Origin: Bifidobacterium bombi DSM 19703
GTDB lineage: Bacteria; Actinomycetota; Actinomycetes; Actinomycetales; Bifidobacteriaceae
Direction: 5' to 3'
DNA: 64,000 nucleotides
NCBI RefSeq assembly: GCF_000737845.1
Contig: NZ_ATLK01000001.1
Span: 186,001 to 250,000, forward strand
The translations under genes and the position numbers were made by a program. Below, piece after piece: positions 31,034-37,547 of this stretch. Each line of letters opens with the position of its first letter. Within the stretch, counting starts at the first letter, position 1. Below the pieces are notes generated by a model that was not told where the DNA came from, searched no databases, and saw only the letters and a list, made by a program, of their open reading frames with translations.

Positions 31034-31107
31034 GCGCCAGTAGCCCAATGGATTAGAGCAGCTGACTACGGATCAGCAGGTTGCAGGTTCGAATCCTGTC
31101 TGGCGCA
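31034..31107 (+). tRNA. tRNA-Arg (anticodon ACG)
   Basis: The acceptor stem GCGCCAG (31034-31040) pairs with CTGGCGC (31100-31106), with discriminator A; CCA is not encoded. The anticodon stem GCTGA/TCAGC encloses the loop CTACGGA, giving anticodon ACG, which is edited to ICG in bacteria and reads CGU/CGC/CGA. The T arm contains GGTTCGAATCC. The 3' half, from 31074, is part of the attachment site of the integrative element, and the tRNA is kept intact. Confidence 0.95.
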
Positions 31108-31133
31108 CAGAAGGTAATGGTTCCAAGGTTTTA
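31074..31133 (+). repeat. attL, left copy of the 60-bp direct repeat
   Basis: Starts in the anticodon stem of tRNA-Arg (CAGCAGGTTGCAGG...) and runs past the tRNA 3' end into the tRNA terminator. It is identical over 60 bases to 36622-36681; the sequences differ immediately outside. Confidence 0.93.
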
Positions 31134-31153
31134 TGGCCTTGGGGCCTTTCTTT
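31123..31153 (+). terminator. Terminator of tRNA-Arg, partly inside attL
   Basis: CCAAGG (31123-31128) pairs with CCTTGG (31137-31142) around an 8-base loop, followed by a T-rich run (TTTCTTTTTT). One arm lies in the attachment repeat, so integration replaces the distal arm; at the right end the equivalent is CCAAGG/CTTTGG, also followed by T-rich sequence. Confidence 0.7.
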
Positions 31154-31209
31154 TTTCGGAATCGGGCACATTTCGGGCACATCGTATGTGCAGGGTCCCC
31201 CCCTCAAGC

Positions 31210-31434
31210 TCACTCCGGCCGCACCGTGTTGCGGCGTATCAGATTCGTCACATCCTCGGGCCGGTATCTGACCTGGCGCCCTATATGCACATACGGAAGC
31301 TCGATTTTTTGCGCTCTCCAGGCGTTCAGGGTGCTTACCGGGATCACCAGGATCTCGGTTACCTCCGCAGGAGTGAGCAATTTGGCCGATGTCGCGGCCG
31401 TGTTTTCGTTCGTTGGTTCTTGTGTTTGGCTCAT
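31210..31434 (-). CDS. xis: Excisionase-like helix-turn-helix protein
   Basis: A 74-residue MerR/AlpA-type helix-turn-helix protein: LLTPAEVTEILVIPVSTLNAWRAQK followed by the wing LPYVHIGRQVRYRPEDV. Such proteins beside a tyrosine integrase usually act as excisionases or as directionality regulators. It is divergent from int, and the two leaders share an inverted repeat. AGGAACAGGT precedes the start. Confidence 0.8.
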   Translation of the reverse strand: MSQTQEPTNENTAATSAKLLTPAEVTEILVIPVSTLNAWRAQKIELPYVHIGRQVRYRPEDVTNLIRRNTVRPE

Positions 31435-31525: not shown

Positions 31526-32794
31526 ATGGCAAAAGCATGGATACATGACAAATGGTTGAAGTCCGCCCAGGTCACGACGGCGGATGGGCATAGCAGGAAA
31601 GTAGAGCCCCCGTCATCCGTGAAGCGATCGTTGGCGATGTACGCCGACGAGCCGGGGAAGGCGAAGGTGCCCGATGACTTCAGGTCGAAGGACTTCGGTA
31701 AAGGCGCGCGCTGGGAGGTGCGCTGGAGGGTTGATGGCACGGGCCGGCGCAAGCTCTTCCGCTACCGGGCCGACGCCGAGGCGTTCATGGCCGAGATCGA
31801 GGATAGGATACGGTCGAACCGGTACACGGACCCCAGGGACTCCCGCAGGCCGTTGAGCGAGGTGGCTGACCTGTGGCAGCAGGGGCTGGCGGGCACGGTC
31901 AAGGGCTCGACGGAGGGACGGTACCGGCGCGAGCTGCGCTGCTGGGTCCTGCCCAAATGGGGGGAGGTCGCATTGAAGGACATCACCACGGTGGGGATCC
32001 AGCACTGGTATGTTGAACTGGCGGAGGGGACGGCACCCTACGCCGGCAAATGGGGCTCCGGCTCCCCGCTGTCCGCGTCCTCGATCCGCTCGGCGGGCAA
32101 GATAGTCCTGGGCTCCATCCTGGACGTGGCTGTGGAGAACCGGTGGCTGGAGGCCAATCCCGTGGCCAAGGCGAAAGTGCCGCACAACAGGGCCGTCCAA
32201 CGGCGAATATACCTGACCCCGCAGGAGATCAAAACCATCGCGGGGCAGATGGACGAGGTCAACGCCACGGTCGTCTACCTGCTCGCGTACACGGGACTGC
32301 GCATCGGCGAGGCCCTGGCCCTGCGGTGCGGGGACGTGGGTCTGAGCCGGAACCGGATCAACGTCCTGCGCACCCAGTCGGTCGATGCCAACTACCTCCT
32401 GGTGGAGACCCTGCCGAAGGGCAACAGGACCAGGTTCGTGCCGATACCCAGCCAGCTGCTGCCCAGGGTCAAAGCCCTGCTGGAGGGGCATGGACCGGAG
32501 GAGTACCTACTGCGCGGGCCCTGGGGAGGAAGGCAGAACACCGCGAACTGGCGGAACCGGGTATGGGCCCCGGCCCTGCAGGACGCGGGCATGAAGGACA
32601 TAGAGGGCCTGGTCATCCACTCCCTGCGCCACACCTACGCCTCCCTGGCCATCAAAGCCGTCGCGGACGTGAAGACCCTCCAGGCCGTACTGGGCCACGC
32701 CTCGGCCACCGAGACCCTGGACACCTACGCGGACCTATGGCCCAATCGCACCGGGGAGGTGGCGGAGGTGATCGGCCAGGATATCCGAATCTGA
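31526..32794 (+). CDS. int: Tyrosine-type site-specific integrase
   Basis: A 422-residue phage-type integrase. N-terminal arm-binding region (RWEVRWRVDGTGRRKLFRYR), a SAM-like core-binding domain, then the catalytic domain from about residue 230: Arg in YTGLRIGEALALR, the HxxR motif in VIHSLRHTYASLA, His in LGHASATETLD and the nucleophile Tyr in DTYADLWP. All catalytic positions are present, so it may be active. It lies next to attL at the tRNA and has GAGG upstream of the ATG. Its base composition is GC-rich with few rare codons, unlike the cargo to its right. Confidence 0.95.
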   Translation: MAKAWIHDKWLKSAQVTTADGHSRKVEPPSSVKRSLAMYADEPGKAKVPDDFRSKDFGKGARWEVRWRVDGTGRRKLFRYRADAEAFMAEIEDRIRSNRYTDPRDSRRPLSEVADLWQQGLAGTVKGSTEGRYRRELRCWVLPKWGEVALKDITTVGIQHWYVELAEGTAPYAGKWGSGSPLSASSIRSAGKIVLGSILDVAVENRWLEANPVAKAKVPHNRAVQRRIYLTPQEIKTIAGQMDEVNATVVYLLAYTGLRIGEALALRCGDVGLSRNRINVLRTQSVDANYLLVETLPKGNRTRFVPIPSQLLPRVKALLEGHGPEEYLLRGPWGGRQNTANWRNRVWAPALQDAGMKDIEGLVIHSLRHTYASLAIKAVADVKTLQAVLGHASATETLDTYADLWPNRTGEVAEVIGQDIRI

Positions 32795-32863
32795 CCGGCA
32801 CGGAGCTATCTCCATGCAGCGAACATGCTGATAGGTAGCCAGTCTGAGAAGAAGATCGAGGCC

Positions 32864-32905
32864 CGGATGGCACTTCCATCCTTTTATGAACAGAAGCGCC
32901 ATCCG
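32864..32905. terminator. Hairpin downstream of int
   Basis: 13-base arms (32864-32876 and 32893-32905; CGGATGGC core) are complementary with one mismatch around a 16-base loop. It follows int by 70 bases and is a plausible terminator, although without a T-run. Confidence 0.45.
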
Positions 32906-32959
32906 TGATTACTTGATGCTTGCCTATTCCTTAATCTAGGAGATGTGGCTTGCTAACCA

Positions 32960-32995
32960 ATTTAATCTTGACATGTTGGCAAGCTTTAAAGTTGA
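32960..32995 (+). repeat. Imperfect direct repeat, left copy
   Basis: Contains TTTAATCTTGACATGTTGGC. A close copy (TTTAACCTTGACATGATGGC) lies at 36437-36472 in the same orientation near the right end. The pair brackets the AT-rich cargo and could be integrase/excisionase arm sites or the scar of an insertion. Confidence 0.5.
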
Positions 32996-33116
32996 GGCAT
33001 GACACGAGATGACTATGAGAAAACGCGATTCCGTCAAACTATGGCTGAATATCTACGGCGCAGCGGAGTTCGGGGGTGCGGGGGAATACTTGGGCACACG
33101 GTGTTGTGTCGTGTTT

Positions 33117-33236
33117 TTAGGGTATCAGTCCTTGTGTCTTGCGGTATTGGCTGGGGCATTTGGAACCCAGTGGGCGTTTGATGCGGGTGGTGTTGCGCCA
33201 GCCGTGCTTGTGCAGTTTGGACTCAATCCAATCGAG
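33117..33236 (-). pseudogene. C-terminal scrap of an IS3-family transposase
   Basis: The reverse strand encodes 39 residues ending in a stop, including WRNTTRIKRPLGSKCPSQYR, the signature end of IS3/IS150-group DDE transposases (W-N-T-x-R-I-K...L-G...S-P-x-Q-Y-R). Upstream the frame is interrupted by stops and no inverted terminal repeats were found, so this is a decayed remnant. Confidence 0.65.
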
Positions 33237-33749
33237 TCACTGGCAGCGTCCCTCGGTGCGGCAGGAATGCTGGCTTAGATTCGGCAACCCGAGATTTAGC
33301 AGGTCGAGGATACGTTCGACCAGGGCCGGGTCAGAGTGGTTACCAACTGTTCAGATAACGTTCACGCCGCCTTGGTGCTACAGATGGTTTTCCTAGTAGT
33401 TTTCATTGTTGACTGTCCGATCGAAGCTAGAGGAGCAATCGGCAGCTGAATCAGTCTTTCCCAAAGATGTCGAATACTGTAAGATATGGTCAGCGTACCC
33501 TGAGCGGGCGTGTCATTTGTGGATTGCGGCCCCATTGCTCTGAGAACATGATGATTAACTGAGGGAATAGCTGCATCTCCTCATCGCCATAATTGCGTAA
33601 GCAACAGCATTTGCGTGTAATCACTCGAACCGGGTGTAACCAACAGAAAATTTCTGGCACGAGACACCCACAAACATCCTTTTGCTTTAAAAAGTTGAAA
33701 AGTTCTTCATAAATGCAGACTGATATACGCGTTTAGCGTTTGAGCATAC

Positions 33750-33778
33750 TTGACTGCTGTGAAATAGCATGATATACT
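33750..33778 (+). promoter_or_regulatory. Promoter of the lanthipeptide-lipoprotein operon
   Basis: TTGACT (33750-33755) and TATACT (33773-33778) at an optimal 17-base spacing, 90 bases upstream of the peptide start codon. It is the best consensus promoter in the element. Confidence 0.7.
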
Positions 33779-33785
33779 TTCTCGC

Positions 33786-33816
33786 AAGTTGATATATCGT
33801 GGGTTTGTATCAAGTT
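33786..33816. promoter_or_regulatory. Operator-like inverted repeat just downstream of the -10
   Basis: AAGTTGATA (33786-33794) and TATCAAGTT (33808-33816) are inverted copies with one mismatch around 13 bases. It would lie at about +1 to +32 of the transcript, a position where a bound repressor would block initiation; a leader hairpin is the alternative. Confidence 0.45.
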
Positions 33817-33867
33817 ACCTAAGGTATCGGTCGCACATAGAAGTGTCTTATATCAAAAGGAGCAATT

Positions 33868-34011
33868 ATGAATAACGTACTTTCTCTTCAACAAACAAGC
33901 ACTCGTAAGACAGGAGCATCGCCCGATTCGATTTTTTCGCTAGTTTCTGTGGCCGGATGCGGTTGGACAACGCTTATGCCATATAGTACTGCTAGCGTAG
34001 TCTTCTGCTAG
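33868..34011 (+). CDS. Putative class III lanthipeptide precursor
   Basis: A 47-residue peptide with AAGGAG 5 bases before its ATG. The leader contains VLSLQ at residues 4-8, matching the L-x-L-Q recognition motif of class III leaders (as in erythreapeptin and avermipeptin). The C-terminal part has two Ser-x2-Ser-x3-Cys motifs, SLVSVAGC and STASVVFC, the second Cys being the last residue; this is the pattern that class III synthetases turn into labionin or lanthionine rings. Between them is GWTTLMPY with two further Thr. The lipoprotein gene starts 13 bases later. No synthetase, protease or exporter gene is nearby, so activity would need help from elsewhere. The class assignment rests on motif pattern only. 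Confidence 0.72.
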   Translation: MNNVLSLQQTSTRKTGASPDSIFSLVSVAGCGWTTLMPYSTASVVFC

Positions 34012-34024
34012 GAATGGTGCCTTT

Positions 34025-34444
34025 ATGAGGAAGAAACTTGTTGGCACAGTTTTAGCTGCTTTAATTGGTGTGATCATATTTTCCGGGTGTGATGGCACCA
34101 ACCGGGCTGATCCGACCGTGGATGATGTGGTCAACCATTTTTCGTCTATGGCCAGATACGAAGTGGCAAATGACGGCAGCAAGACCGCTATTTCTGCAGA
34201 AAAATCGGGGACCTTATTTGTTCTCGCAACAAGGCAGAACCTCAAAAAGGTAAATGCCAAACGATGCAGAGTAAATGGCAAGGCAATGCATGGTTCTTCT
34301 TCAGATTTGAATTATCCAGCAGGTAACGGGCAGAATTATTTCCCCTTTGCTCGAATTCACATTGATCGCAGTGGTGACTATGAACTCACTTGCAGCCAGC
34401 CAGATAATGTTAGTTTGATTGCGTTGCTTGATCCCACTGGATAA
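34025..34444 (+). CDS. Small lipoprotein, possibly an immunity or accessory protein
   Basis: A 139-residue protein with a lipoprotein signal: basic MRKK, a hydrophobic stretch, and the lipobox IFSGC with the lipidated Cys at residue 22. The mature part is polar, with no domain I recognise. It follows the lanthipeptide-like gene by 13 bases and must share its promoter. Membrane lipoproteins serve as immunity proteins in several lantibiotic systems, so self-protection is a reasonable but unproven inference. Confidence 0.7.
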   Translation: MRKKLVGTVLAALIGVIIFSGCDGTNRADPTVDDVVNHFSSMARYEVANDGSKTAISAEKSGTLFVLATRQNLKKVNAKRCRVNGKAMHGSSSDLNYPAGNGQNYFPFARIHIDRSGDYELTCSQPDNVSLIALLDPTG

Positions 34445-34479
34445 TAACGTAGCTGGACCTCGGAGGCAGGCGTGATATT

Positions 34480-34740
34480 ATGGAGATACAAATTACCCGC
34501 TCTGTAGGATTCTTATCCTTTAAAAAGTGGGGCATCTGGTTTCCTGCTGGTTTATCGACCTGCAACTGGGTTTGCGGCGATTGTTATGTCTTTTCCTGTG
34601 CAGCCCACAGTATTTGTATGCCGGGAAAGACCCCAATGTTTCATACCATGCGTTTACAAATGAGGGCATTCGGGGCAGATTCAATTGAATTAAGTTATCT
34701 TTCTCATTCAAAGATATGCAGGATATTTTTCTCATTTTAA
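34480..34740 (+). CDS. Small Cys-rich hypothetical protein or degraded gene
   Basis: An 86-codon frame with several cysteines (STCNWVCGDCYVFSC). A GGAGG at 34462-34466 is 13 bases from this ATG, too far for good initiation, and better placed for a GTG at 34472 that gives only 11 codons. Another frame reads PQYLYAGKDPNVSYHAFTNE, which looks equally protein-like. The mixture suggests a frameshifted or decayed gene in the lanthipeptide operon. No function is assigned. Confidence 0.3.
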   Translation: MEIQITRSVGFLSFKKWGIWFPAGLSTCNWVCGDCYVFSCAAHSICMPGKTPMFHTMRLQMRAFGADSIELSYLSHSKICRIFFSF

Positions 34741-34794
34741 TGGTAAATTCTCTTTAATGTAAGAATTGGGCGAAACTTAAAATAGGAGAGACTG

Positions 34795-35414
34795 ATGCCA
34801 TTAGATAATTTAGGATACCTAAAAATGATATGGAAAAGAAAAACTGGACAATTTGCAGCTTTTTGTTTTATTACAAAAAAGTAGAATATATTGTACTTGT
34901 AAAGCGCTTCGTCGGTGAGGAAACAAAAGTAAGTAAATATGCTTTAGTAAAATTACATTTTATGAGGTCCGGTGACTTACAAAATGATTTGGAAGTAGAA
35001 GCAAATAGAAAGGGATTACTTGTTGACGCGAAAACACTGCGTGTTTATTTCGGAATAGATTACCAAGAGAATTTGGGGGATATCATCCGTCAGTTTGCTG
35101 AAGCGCTCGACAGCGCGATTCCTACTTCCGTGCCTGATAACTTATCGGATGAAGAAAAAAGTGCAATGGTACGGTCTCTTAGCAAAAGTGATTCTGAGGA
35201 TCCGAGTAAAGTCTACTGTACTAAGGTGAGAAGGAATCCGAACGGTGGACGCCGGAGTGAATTTAATTCTGATAAAACAAAGTTATTGAGACCAAATTTA
35301 TTCGAGTACCTGAGCAATGATCCAGGAATCAGTTTTTGCTATTCTGCTCAGGCATCCCAAGAAAATGATGATGACACAATCTTGAAACACTTTACAGAGA
35401 GCAATGCAATGTGA
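34795..35414 (+). pseudogene. Frameshifted gene, possibly DUF6037-like
   Basis: AGGAGA precedes an ATG at 34795 giving MPLDNLGYLK, but this frame stops after 29 codons. A -1 shift in the run of A at 34821-34825 joins it smoothly to a long frame continuing NDMEKKNWTICSFLFYYKKV and ending at 35414, for a full product of about 205 residues. Conserved-looking blocks are YALVKLHFMRSGDL, ENLGDIIRQFAEALDS and FNSDKTKLLRPNLFEYL. From memory this resembles the uncharacterised DUF6037 family; that label is tentative. It may be a real lesion, programmed frameshifting or a sequencing error in the A-run. The gene is AT-rich with codon use unlike the backbone. Confidence 0.55.
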
Positions 35415-36436
35415 ATCCATCAATCAATGGGGAGCAATGAAATGATGCACAATGCATGTGTAACTGATTGACGAGAACACCTATCAAGTTGGTATGGGTG
35501 ATAAGGCAATTCCTGCGCTCGATTAATGCCAAACAGAGGGATGGGTGGAGCTCCTCAAAGTTCATGTCCTGCCAAAGATGTCCCTGGGGAACGAGACTGA
35601 TGGGTAGGGAGGCAAGCTTCACTACGGCACGTACGTGCCAAAACTTCCGCGGTTTTGCATATTCCTAGCTTCGCAAGAACTTTTCGTGGAGCAGTGGTCA
35701 TCTCCCACAGTTTTCTGAAGTTACAGGAAAAAGTGATGAGAAGATCTGGTATTTCTTGATGTTGGGATATTCGGTCTGCTTCTTGGAACACAGAGTACAT
35801 GGAGACTCTCCATTGCAATCGGGATCCAACTTTGGTCTGGATTGATGTTTTTGGTGACGGTCTGCAGGTGATTTAGCCAAATTCGACACGACCGCCGACC
35901 GTCAGGAAGCTCAAGACAAGGGTGCTCTACCTCTCTACGCCCATTCCATGGACGGAGCCATAGGCTCATCTGTGTTTGAACACCATCCATTGCTGTGCTC
36001 TATAAGGCCGTCCTGTCTTCTCCCATGATTTAGCCTCAAATCGTTGGTTTGCTCACTTGGTTAGCCTTGCCTGGACTGATTGTCGCCTGCGGCCTGGTGT
36101 TGGGCAACAGACGTGTACCGGGCCGCCTCTTCGGAAGTTTCGTCAGTATCGGAATTGCGCATTCGCGTCCCAAGGCGGGCAACAATTTCCTTTCATCGTT
36201 TTTGGATTTAAGATAGTAAAAGTTATATTTTCTGACTAATGCTGAAACTCGTAAAGCGCAAAACTAATGGTTGACTTTTGCTGGCATTCAACTTTTTGAC
36301 CGGGTTTTCTTTAATGGCAGTTCAGTGTGCTATAAATTATATTGTTAGCTGCAAGCATTGGGTACATTTGGAAGTTCTTTTTCGATTCCACTTGCTTCGG
36401 ATGTTTTCAAAGATCTTTTATAATATTTACGCTCTG
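35415..36436. other. AT-rich degraded DNA in the right part of the element
   Basis: No intact gene was found. On the reverse strand around 35990-35450 the translation contains protein-like blocks interrupted by stops and shifts (for example CSKKQTEYPNIKKYQIFSSL and LPISLVPQGHLWQDMNFEEL), suggesting an eroded gene. On the forward strand around 36034-36213 a short hydrophobic frame reads ALPGLIVACGLVLGNRRVPG, possibly a membrane-protein scrap. Neither has a ribosome-binding site. Confidence 0.4.
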
Positions 36437-36472
36437 ATTTAACCTTGACATGATGGCAGAGCTTGGCGTTGA
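36437..36472 (+). repeat. Imperfect direct repeat, right copy
   Basis: Contains TTTAACCTTGACATGATGGC, the partner of 32960-32995, about 150 bases inside attR. Confidence 0.5.
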
Positions 36473-36621
36473 AAATCCAATCGGGCACATTGATACACTA
36501 ACGTACCCGTTTCAGCTCGCATCAGTTAATACTTGGAATGTGCTATCACCGGCAGTATTCCAGTCGTTATTACTAACAGTTAAGGGTAGCTAGCATGTAC
36601 ACATACAGCAGCCTTTCTCAA

Positions 36622-36681
36622 CAGCAGGTTGCAGGTTCGAATCCTGTCTGGCGCACAGAAGGTAATGGTTCCAAGGTTTTA
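36622..36681 (+). repeat. attR, right copy of the 60-bp direct repeat
   Basis: Identical over 60 bases to 31074-31133. It contains the 3' half of tRNA-Arg without the 5' half, so it is not a second tRNA gene. Confidence 0.93.
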
Positions 36682-37547
36682 CGACTTTGGGGCCATTTTT
36701 CTTTTCGCAATGGGGTGTATTGTAACTGTCTGGTTATTTTTTGAAGTTGCATTTGCACACCGTCTTTTGAGTCGGCACAGTCGTCCTGAATTCCTCGGGA
36801 TAACTGTCATTCACCGTCATCGCATGCTGGTTCATATGAATACGATTAAGGCGGTTCATCATGGGGCGGATGTCTGATTGTATCCGCATCTCCATTGCCG
36901 TAGACGAGTCTTCCGAACCTGTCTTCGCCTTGGTCTTAAGTATTCTCAACTGACCGTTCGCATGGGTCTGTAGCCTGAACTCCTGCCGAGCCAACTCGGC
37001 TTGACCGCCCTGTCGTCAAAGTGCTCCAGGACAATACCTTACCGTAGACGGCTTGCCCTTCAGCCTGGGGCCTCGGATAGAAGCAGCGGCGGGTTGGCAT
37101 TCTGGTTTTTGATGCATCAAGCTACCGGCTGGATAATCTGACAAGACGTTGAGCGGGTTGAAAGCAGCAACGTTGGTGGCATCTTGCGTCAGGGGAGAGG
37201 GAGCTTCGTTGCCGGATTGCCAGATGGGTGGCGCCTGCGATTTCGCAATCTGTGTCTTTTGAGGGTGATGCTGAGGGGGCGGTGACTCTGTTATGTTCCT
37301 GCACCAATGGGTGCCGTCTTGTTATGGGTGATGCCTTGTTTTTTGCAGGAAAGGTTCCACCTTGGTCAAGGACCCTCTCAGGCCTTTTGCCTCCAGGGAA
37401 CTGCAAAGGTGCCCCGGATGGGGTTGCCCCACCCGGAGTGGTGGGGCCTCTCACTGGGGGGGTGACGCCAGTGAGGCAGAAATCGGGTTTGACGGGGTTG
37501 TTTCGGGGCGGACACAGTTCCGTCAAACGAGCCGGAGGTTGGTGATT
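36682..37547. other. Non-coding or eroded stretch right of attR
   Basis: About 870 bases without a convincing gene. A reverse frame at 36734-36994 encodes 86 residues with a polar, helical-looking sequence (LRILKTKAKTGSEDSSTAME) that could be the end of an eroded gene. Around 37400-37450 there are short GC-rich inverted repeats (CCCCGGATGGGG). Nothing identifiable. Confidence 0.4.

Follow-up and report, generated by a model that had tools for sequence, protein, structure and literature searches.

Class III lanthipeptide precursors carry an LxLQ motif in their leader, and the Sx2Sx3C motif of their core gives rise to lanthionine or labionin (PMC7268733, whose main text makes no reference to bifidobacteria). 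The roles of the LanKC domains in the established class III scheme are described in two papers (PMC4289311, PMC10673953). Within Bifidobacterium, a BAGEL4 analysis of five B. bifidum genomes yielded nine potential bacteriocin operons, one type of which was named Nai_112 (PMC8535415). That paper calls Nai_112 a class III lanthipeptide of Actinoplanes; in its results section the entry appears under another name, and class I or II is mentioned. As a NAI-112-like operon has been predicted in B. bifidum, class III-like clusters are not new to the genus as predictions. Other reports, also accessible in part, describe class II and class IV clusters in B. longum (PMC4289311), a class IV cluster in B. 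pseudocatenulatum (PMC11840169), class I and class IV clusters and the BLD_1648 lanthipeptide cluster (PMC11218132), and class III clusters of bee-gut Lactobacillus together with Bifidobacterium RiPP clusters whose class is not given in the available text (PMC10673953). Our search of the accessible portions of the open-access literature, with subscription papers outside its scope, found no characterised bifidobacterial class III product, and a literature search on mobile elements that carry orphan lanthipeptide precursors returned nothing.

The closest system to the gene described here lies in Bifidobacterium sp. N4G05 (which we take genome G091 to be), a strain from the human vaginal microbiome that is close to B. 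kashiwanohense, according to the part of its report that was accessible (PMC5764941). Its class III array consists, in order, of precursor 1 (P0002, L004:9905-10045), precursor 2, LanKC, precursor 3, an ABC transporter, a LuxR-type response regulator and a 388-aa protein. The LanKC is 861 aa long, scores 678 bits against a cut-off of 575, and has RamC_N, kinase-like and LANC_like domains, scoring 53.6 on PF05147 where the model cut-off is 23.2. Precursors 2 and 3 both exceed the lanthi_III_b cut-off, at 44.5 and 52.2 bits. A Pfam scan of the 388-aa protein gave no match, and its position and general look suggest a sensor kinase. In class III systems the leader box recruits LanKC. The enzyme would then phosphorylate the Ser residues of the two core Ser-Ser-Cys sets and eliminate the phosphate to yield dehydrated Ser, after which Cys would close the rings to give lanthionine or labionin.

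The window, a 64-kb stretch of the Bifidobacterium bombi DSM 19703 genome, contains a gene at 33868..34011 (+) that translates to MNNVLSLQQTSTRKTGASPDSIFSLVSVAGCGWTTLMPYSTASVVFC followed by a stop codon. This 47-residue peptide has VLSLQ at residues 4-8, so that an LxLQ leader box, LSLQ, occupies residues 5-8 (33880..33891, +). The strict S-x2-S-x3-C motif occurs exactly twice, as SLVSVAGC at residues 24-31 (33937..33960, +) and as STASVVFC at residues 40-47 (33985..34008, +), the second forming the C-terminal end of the peptide. Translation and motif search thus confirmed the leader and the two motifs reported in a preliminary description of this DNA. That description had also cited a promoter and an AAGGAG as support for expression, and both are present. 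The ribosome-binding site AAGGAG, read from the sequence, is at 33857..33862 (+), and the promoter-like site TTGACT-17-TATACT at 33750..33778 (+) has 10 of 12 consensus bases and a TG before the second hexamer. The promoter is, however, no better than chance by count: three promoter-like sites were observed in 33400-34900 against a shuffled mean of 3.2, and we therefore give it little weight. Just downstream of it, at 33789-33813, is an inverted repeat, TTGATATA-9-TGTATCAA, with seven of eight arm positions paired when counted by eye, which is possibly an operator.

When 199 related genomes, the host's own included, were searched with the peptide, a clear match (54% identity, E 5.4e-8) was found in N4G05, a member of the same genus as the host. 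This match is P0002, the first gene of the class III array. The two peptides are alike over their whole length, sharing the LxLQ box, both S-x2-S-x3-C motifs and a WTTxMPxSTAS segment. All seven core Ser and Cys residues, among them the Ser, Ser and Cys of each motif, are kept between them, as against 18 of the 36 other aligned residues; the leader's three Ser are not conserved, and counting these, 7 of 10 Ser and Cys residues are kept. The surroundings of the two genes differ. Downstream of P0002, but not of the window gene, come precursor 2, LanKC, precursor 3, the transporter and the response regulator, and no tRNA was seen in the 19.9-kb stretch read around the N4G05 locus. A scan of species genomes with two short peptide patterns, which can miss relatives, likewise returned N4G05 alone (contig NZ_NJNQ01000002.1).

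At the nucleotide level, the window gene and the P0002 gene are identical at 29, 33 and 19 of 46 first, second and third codon positions, respectively, and the NG86 method gave a dN of 0.44 and a dS of 1.73, the latter being near saturation. Together, the codon positions and dN/dS indicate that selection acted on the encoded protein during at least some of the time since the frame split from the P0002 lineage, as judged from these two sequences. The subfamily, with two members found, offers too few sequences to gauge selection after LanKC was lost. The homology of the gene to a precursor encoded beside a full LanKC, with leader box and both motifs conserved, leads us to conclude from sequence comparison that a class III lanthipeptide precursor was its ancestor. 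This bears out the ancestry first proposed for the gene.

The peptide is short and falls under the curated cut-offs of the precursor models, as might be expected of a chance open frame with fortuitous motifs. We matched it to three NCBIfam class III or SapB-type models (E 2e-5, 0.011 and 0.03), all near full length and with leader and core in register. The match to NF038159 (lanthi_III_b, E 2e-5) covers all 38 model positions and scores 24.5 bits against a curated cut-off of 30; the scores on NF038154 (lanthi_III_a) and NF033212 (SapB/AmfS) are 16.3 bits against 22 and 14.4 bits against 25. Given that the peptide misses the curated cut-off on all three models, we term it a homologue of the family and not a curated member. 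P0002 served as a yardstick here. It scores 24.8 bits on lanthi_III_b, next to 24.5 for the window peptide, and it beats the window peptide on lanthi_III_a (23.5 versus 16.3) and SapB/AmfS (19.5 versus 14.4), passing the cut-off on lanthi_III_a and remaining below it on the other two. For a measure of chance, 60 dinucleotide-preserving shuffles of the window yielded 61,953 frames of 25-90 aa. None had the strict double motif at its C-terminus and none combined a looser double motif with a leader box; the looser pair by itself turned up in 34. The unshuffled window has the strict motif in a single frame of 716 in this size range, and the same frame is the one with both motif and leader. The homologue in a LanKC array (E 5.4e-8) speaks strongly against a chance frame, as do the absence of the strict motif from every shuffled frame and a codon-position pattern that is that of a coding gene. 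On these grounds and that of the genus scan given below we rejected this explanation, whose probability we regard as negligible.

The gene had been placed on a tRNA-Arg integrative element, and the flanking features confirm this. ARAGORN identified a tRNA-Arg (ACG) gene, the integration site, at 31034..31108 (+). An 83-nt direct repeat comprising the 3′ end of the tRNA and a further 48 nt lies on the attL side at 31074..31156 (+), and its counterpart on the attR side, at 36622..36704 (+), is 93% identical over 83 nt, the first 60 nt being exact. Beside the tRNA gene is a 422-aa tyrosine recombinase, the integrase, at 31526..32794 (+), which matches PF00589 (E 2.2e-19) and PF14659 (E 3e-6), both over their cut-offs. 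An HTH_17 protein at 31210..31434 (−) (PF12728, E 2.9e-9, over cut-off) is probably the excisionase. With a tyrosine recombinase next to the tRNA gene and the tRNA 3′ end directly repeated at either boundary, the locus reads as an integrative element of ~5.5 kb at tRNA-Arg. Its base composition is uneven, with a G+C content of 38-46% by segment over 33400-36621, 52% over 32800-33400 and 66% in the integrase, next to 56% for the window. Relatives of the integrase at E up to 1e-40 were found in 33 of 112 Bifidobacterium genomes, the host's own included, at no more than 46% identity apart from the window's own. A DNA search for sibling elements found matches to the hydrolase part and to a stretch near attR in G088, and short matches in eight other genomes.

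The remaining cargo shows that the element is partly decayed. A 194-aa DUF6037 protein is encoded at 34830..35414 (+) (PF19503, E 1.1e-63), and it is followed at 35452..35974 (+) by a Hydrolase_4-type gene broken into three frames, which tblastn of a protein from locus L065 matched at 53%, 45% and 36% identity. The L065 protein itself matches PF12146. Nine further small frames within the element were scanned against Pfam and gave no match at E up to 0.1. As to the DUF6037 gene, its match starts at profile position 13 and a start codon lies upstream in another frame (stretch 34795-35414); the upstream frame may perhaps supply the missing N-terminal part, in which case the gene would be frameshifted. 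The homologous hydrolase frame in G088 (L065:8759-9334, −) is open.

That a lanthipeptide is made in the host, as first proposed, is not supported. In the host assembly, which is estimated to be 93.4% complete and is in four contigs, four different searches found neither LanKC nor any other LanC-domain protein: LANC_like (PF05147) at E up to 1 gave no match, RamC_N (PF25816) at E up to 0.01 gave none, the LanKC model (NF038151) gave six matches that all lie in the kinase range, and tblastn with the N4G05 LanKC gave one match, again in the kinase range (E 0.0013). A search of the element with the N4G05 LanKC, at E up to 1, found no remnants of the gene. Among the other proteins of the N4G05 cluster compared with the element, only the peptide was clear (E 4e-11), the rest giving short matches with E values no lower than 0.13. 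Elsewhere in the window there is a match to the ATP-binding part of the cluster's ABC transporter (E 1e-8), which any transporter of this type would give. Since no synthetase was found in the host assembly or in the element, we do not file the locus as a lanthipeptide cluster, and the completeness of the assembly makes the absence of LanKC likely but not proved.

Because no LanKC was found in the host assembly, a stranded precursor is the most likely state of the gene. We consider it probable, with good if not high confidence, that the window holds an intact but stranded class III precursor, probably unmodified in its host, on a partly decayed integrative element. The peptide would perhaps be transcribed and translated in B. 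bombi with no ring closure, and the precursor would have been left behind after exchange of cargo or decay of the element; we infer both the absence of modification and this history of loss. Against the stranded reading, the gene is open, has a good ribosome-binding site and has core Ser and Cys residues that have not drifted, which would be unusual for an old relic, and a LanKC could sit in the part missing from the 93.4% complete, four-contig assembly.

The latter point, together with the intact leader box and core, would fit a functional class III system with its LanKC at another genomic site, in DNA that the assembly does not include. Set against it are the four empty searches, when genus scans by comparison recovered LanKC in six other genomes. 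LanKC exceeded the cut-off in 5 of 112 Bifidobacterium genomes, and a sixth reached 537 bits against 575; the G016 gene has a stop inside, and that of G080 is below the cut-off and split. RamC_N was over its cut-off in the same six genomes, with a weak match in G038. Each of the six loci has a candidate precursor with a leader no more than about 3 kb from LanKC, so that precursor and enzyme are found together and not apart. This arrangement also speaks against a distant LanKC, and we think such a system unlikely in B. bombi. In five of these genomes (G032, G070, G016, G080 and G102) the candidate precursors, at most about 3 kb from LanKC, have VLDFQ or LLSLQ leaders, and their cores bear no resemblance to that of the window peptide. 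Such candidates matched single class III models weakly (E 0.014 and 0.051).

The precursor family itself is sparsely distributed. In an NF038159 scan at E up to 0.5, 44 of the 112 genomes had some match. Only four matches were clear, the window peptide (2.9e-4) and three from G091, the next best being 0.012. The window peptide is thus the only clear lanthi_III_b match with no synthetase among these genomes. An alignment of the peptide with P0002 matched 9 of the 112 genomes at E up to 0.05, strongly in the host (1.8e-32) and G091 (1.7e-30) and weakly in the other seven (0.003-0.048), and when 396 genomes sampled from the phylum were searched with it at E up to 0.001, it matched only the window's own. 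Viral contigs, plasmids and phages gave no relatives. On reading of their translations the seven weak alignment matches were judged to be chance. These were dropped along with four weak NF038159 matches and a weak peptide match in G029 from the 199-genome search (E 0.0044, two stop codons inside), as none by eye had LxLQ with the double motif after it; those in G073 and G068, which rank next to the four clear matches, have a looser double Ser-Cys motif and no leader.

The gene that follows the peptide offers a different explanation. Only 13 nt beyond the peptide stop and on the same strand begins a 139-aa lipoprotein-like gene (34025..34444, +), its lipobox-like start read by eye from the translation, and this arrangement suggests that the two genes are co-transcribed. 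The spacing and shared strand, and the fact that the peptide frame is still open amid decayed cargo, are consistent with a two-gene unit of new role, in which the unmodified peptide would act as a signal or membrane peptide and the lipoprotein as its partner or immunity protein. Homologues of the lipoprotein were found in 11 of 199 genomes, namely the host's own, nine other Bifidobacterium, and one weak match in another genus; the homologue in G093 is in two pieces. In eight of the nine Bifidobacterium loci the homologue lies near a gene that we take, from its sequence, to be of ClpC type, and no lanthipeptide cluster that we saw includes a gene of this lipoprotein kind. A looser double core motif was found in none of 535 frames of 25-90 aa on both strands of 7-kb stretches around the nine homologues, and tblastn of the peptide against these stretches at E up to 1 gave a single 19-residue match (E 0.29). 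The nine loci therefore give no support for a lanthipeptide-linked role, and a role for the lipoprotein in lanthipeptide immunity, which we had considered, is weakened by homologues that have no precursor-like frames nearby and lie mostly near the ClpC-type gene. The same nine loci, where no such peptide was found, also argue against the two-gene unit, since the pairing of peptide and lipoprotein is seen once only, and we hold this explanation to be quite doubtful.

The stranded precursor provides a second sequence for a class III precursor subfamily that our searches found elsewhere in N4G05 alone: the peptide is new to a known precursor family and is found apart from its enzyme. It suggests that a precursor gene can travel without its enzyme, and a stranded precursor of this kind would escape any search that takes the synthetase as its starting point. 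An element with no synthetase could also be a mobile, precursor-only satellite, kept by selection and matured in trans by the LanKC of recipient bifidobacteria. We judge this to be very improbable, and the significance of the locus would be higher only if the peptide proved to be matured in trans. The locus also draws attention to LanKC in Bifidobacterium, where a second type of LanKC locus was seen in four genomes (L039, L040, L041 and L043), whose 44-aa candidate precursor (MGNNVLDFQ...) overlaps LanKC at the end of the latter. A stop codon interrupts LanKC in L041, and the N-terminal part of the L043 enzyme seems to be encoded in a frame of its own. Finally, G102 encodes a candidate class III-like precursor (L042:3557-3748, reverse complement) about 2.6 kb upstream of its LanKC, with an LLSLQ leader, a core rich in Cys, His and Trp, and an NF038159 match at E 0.051.
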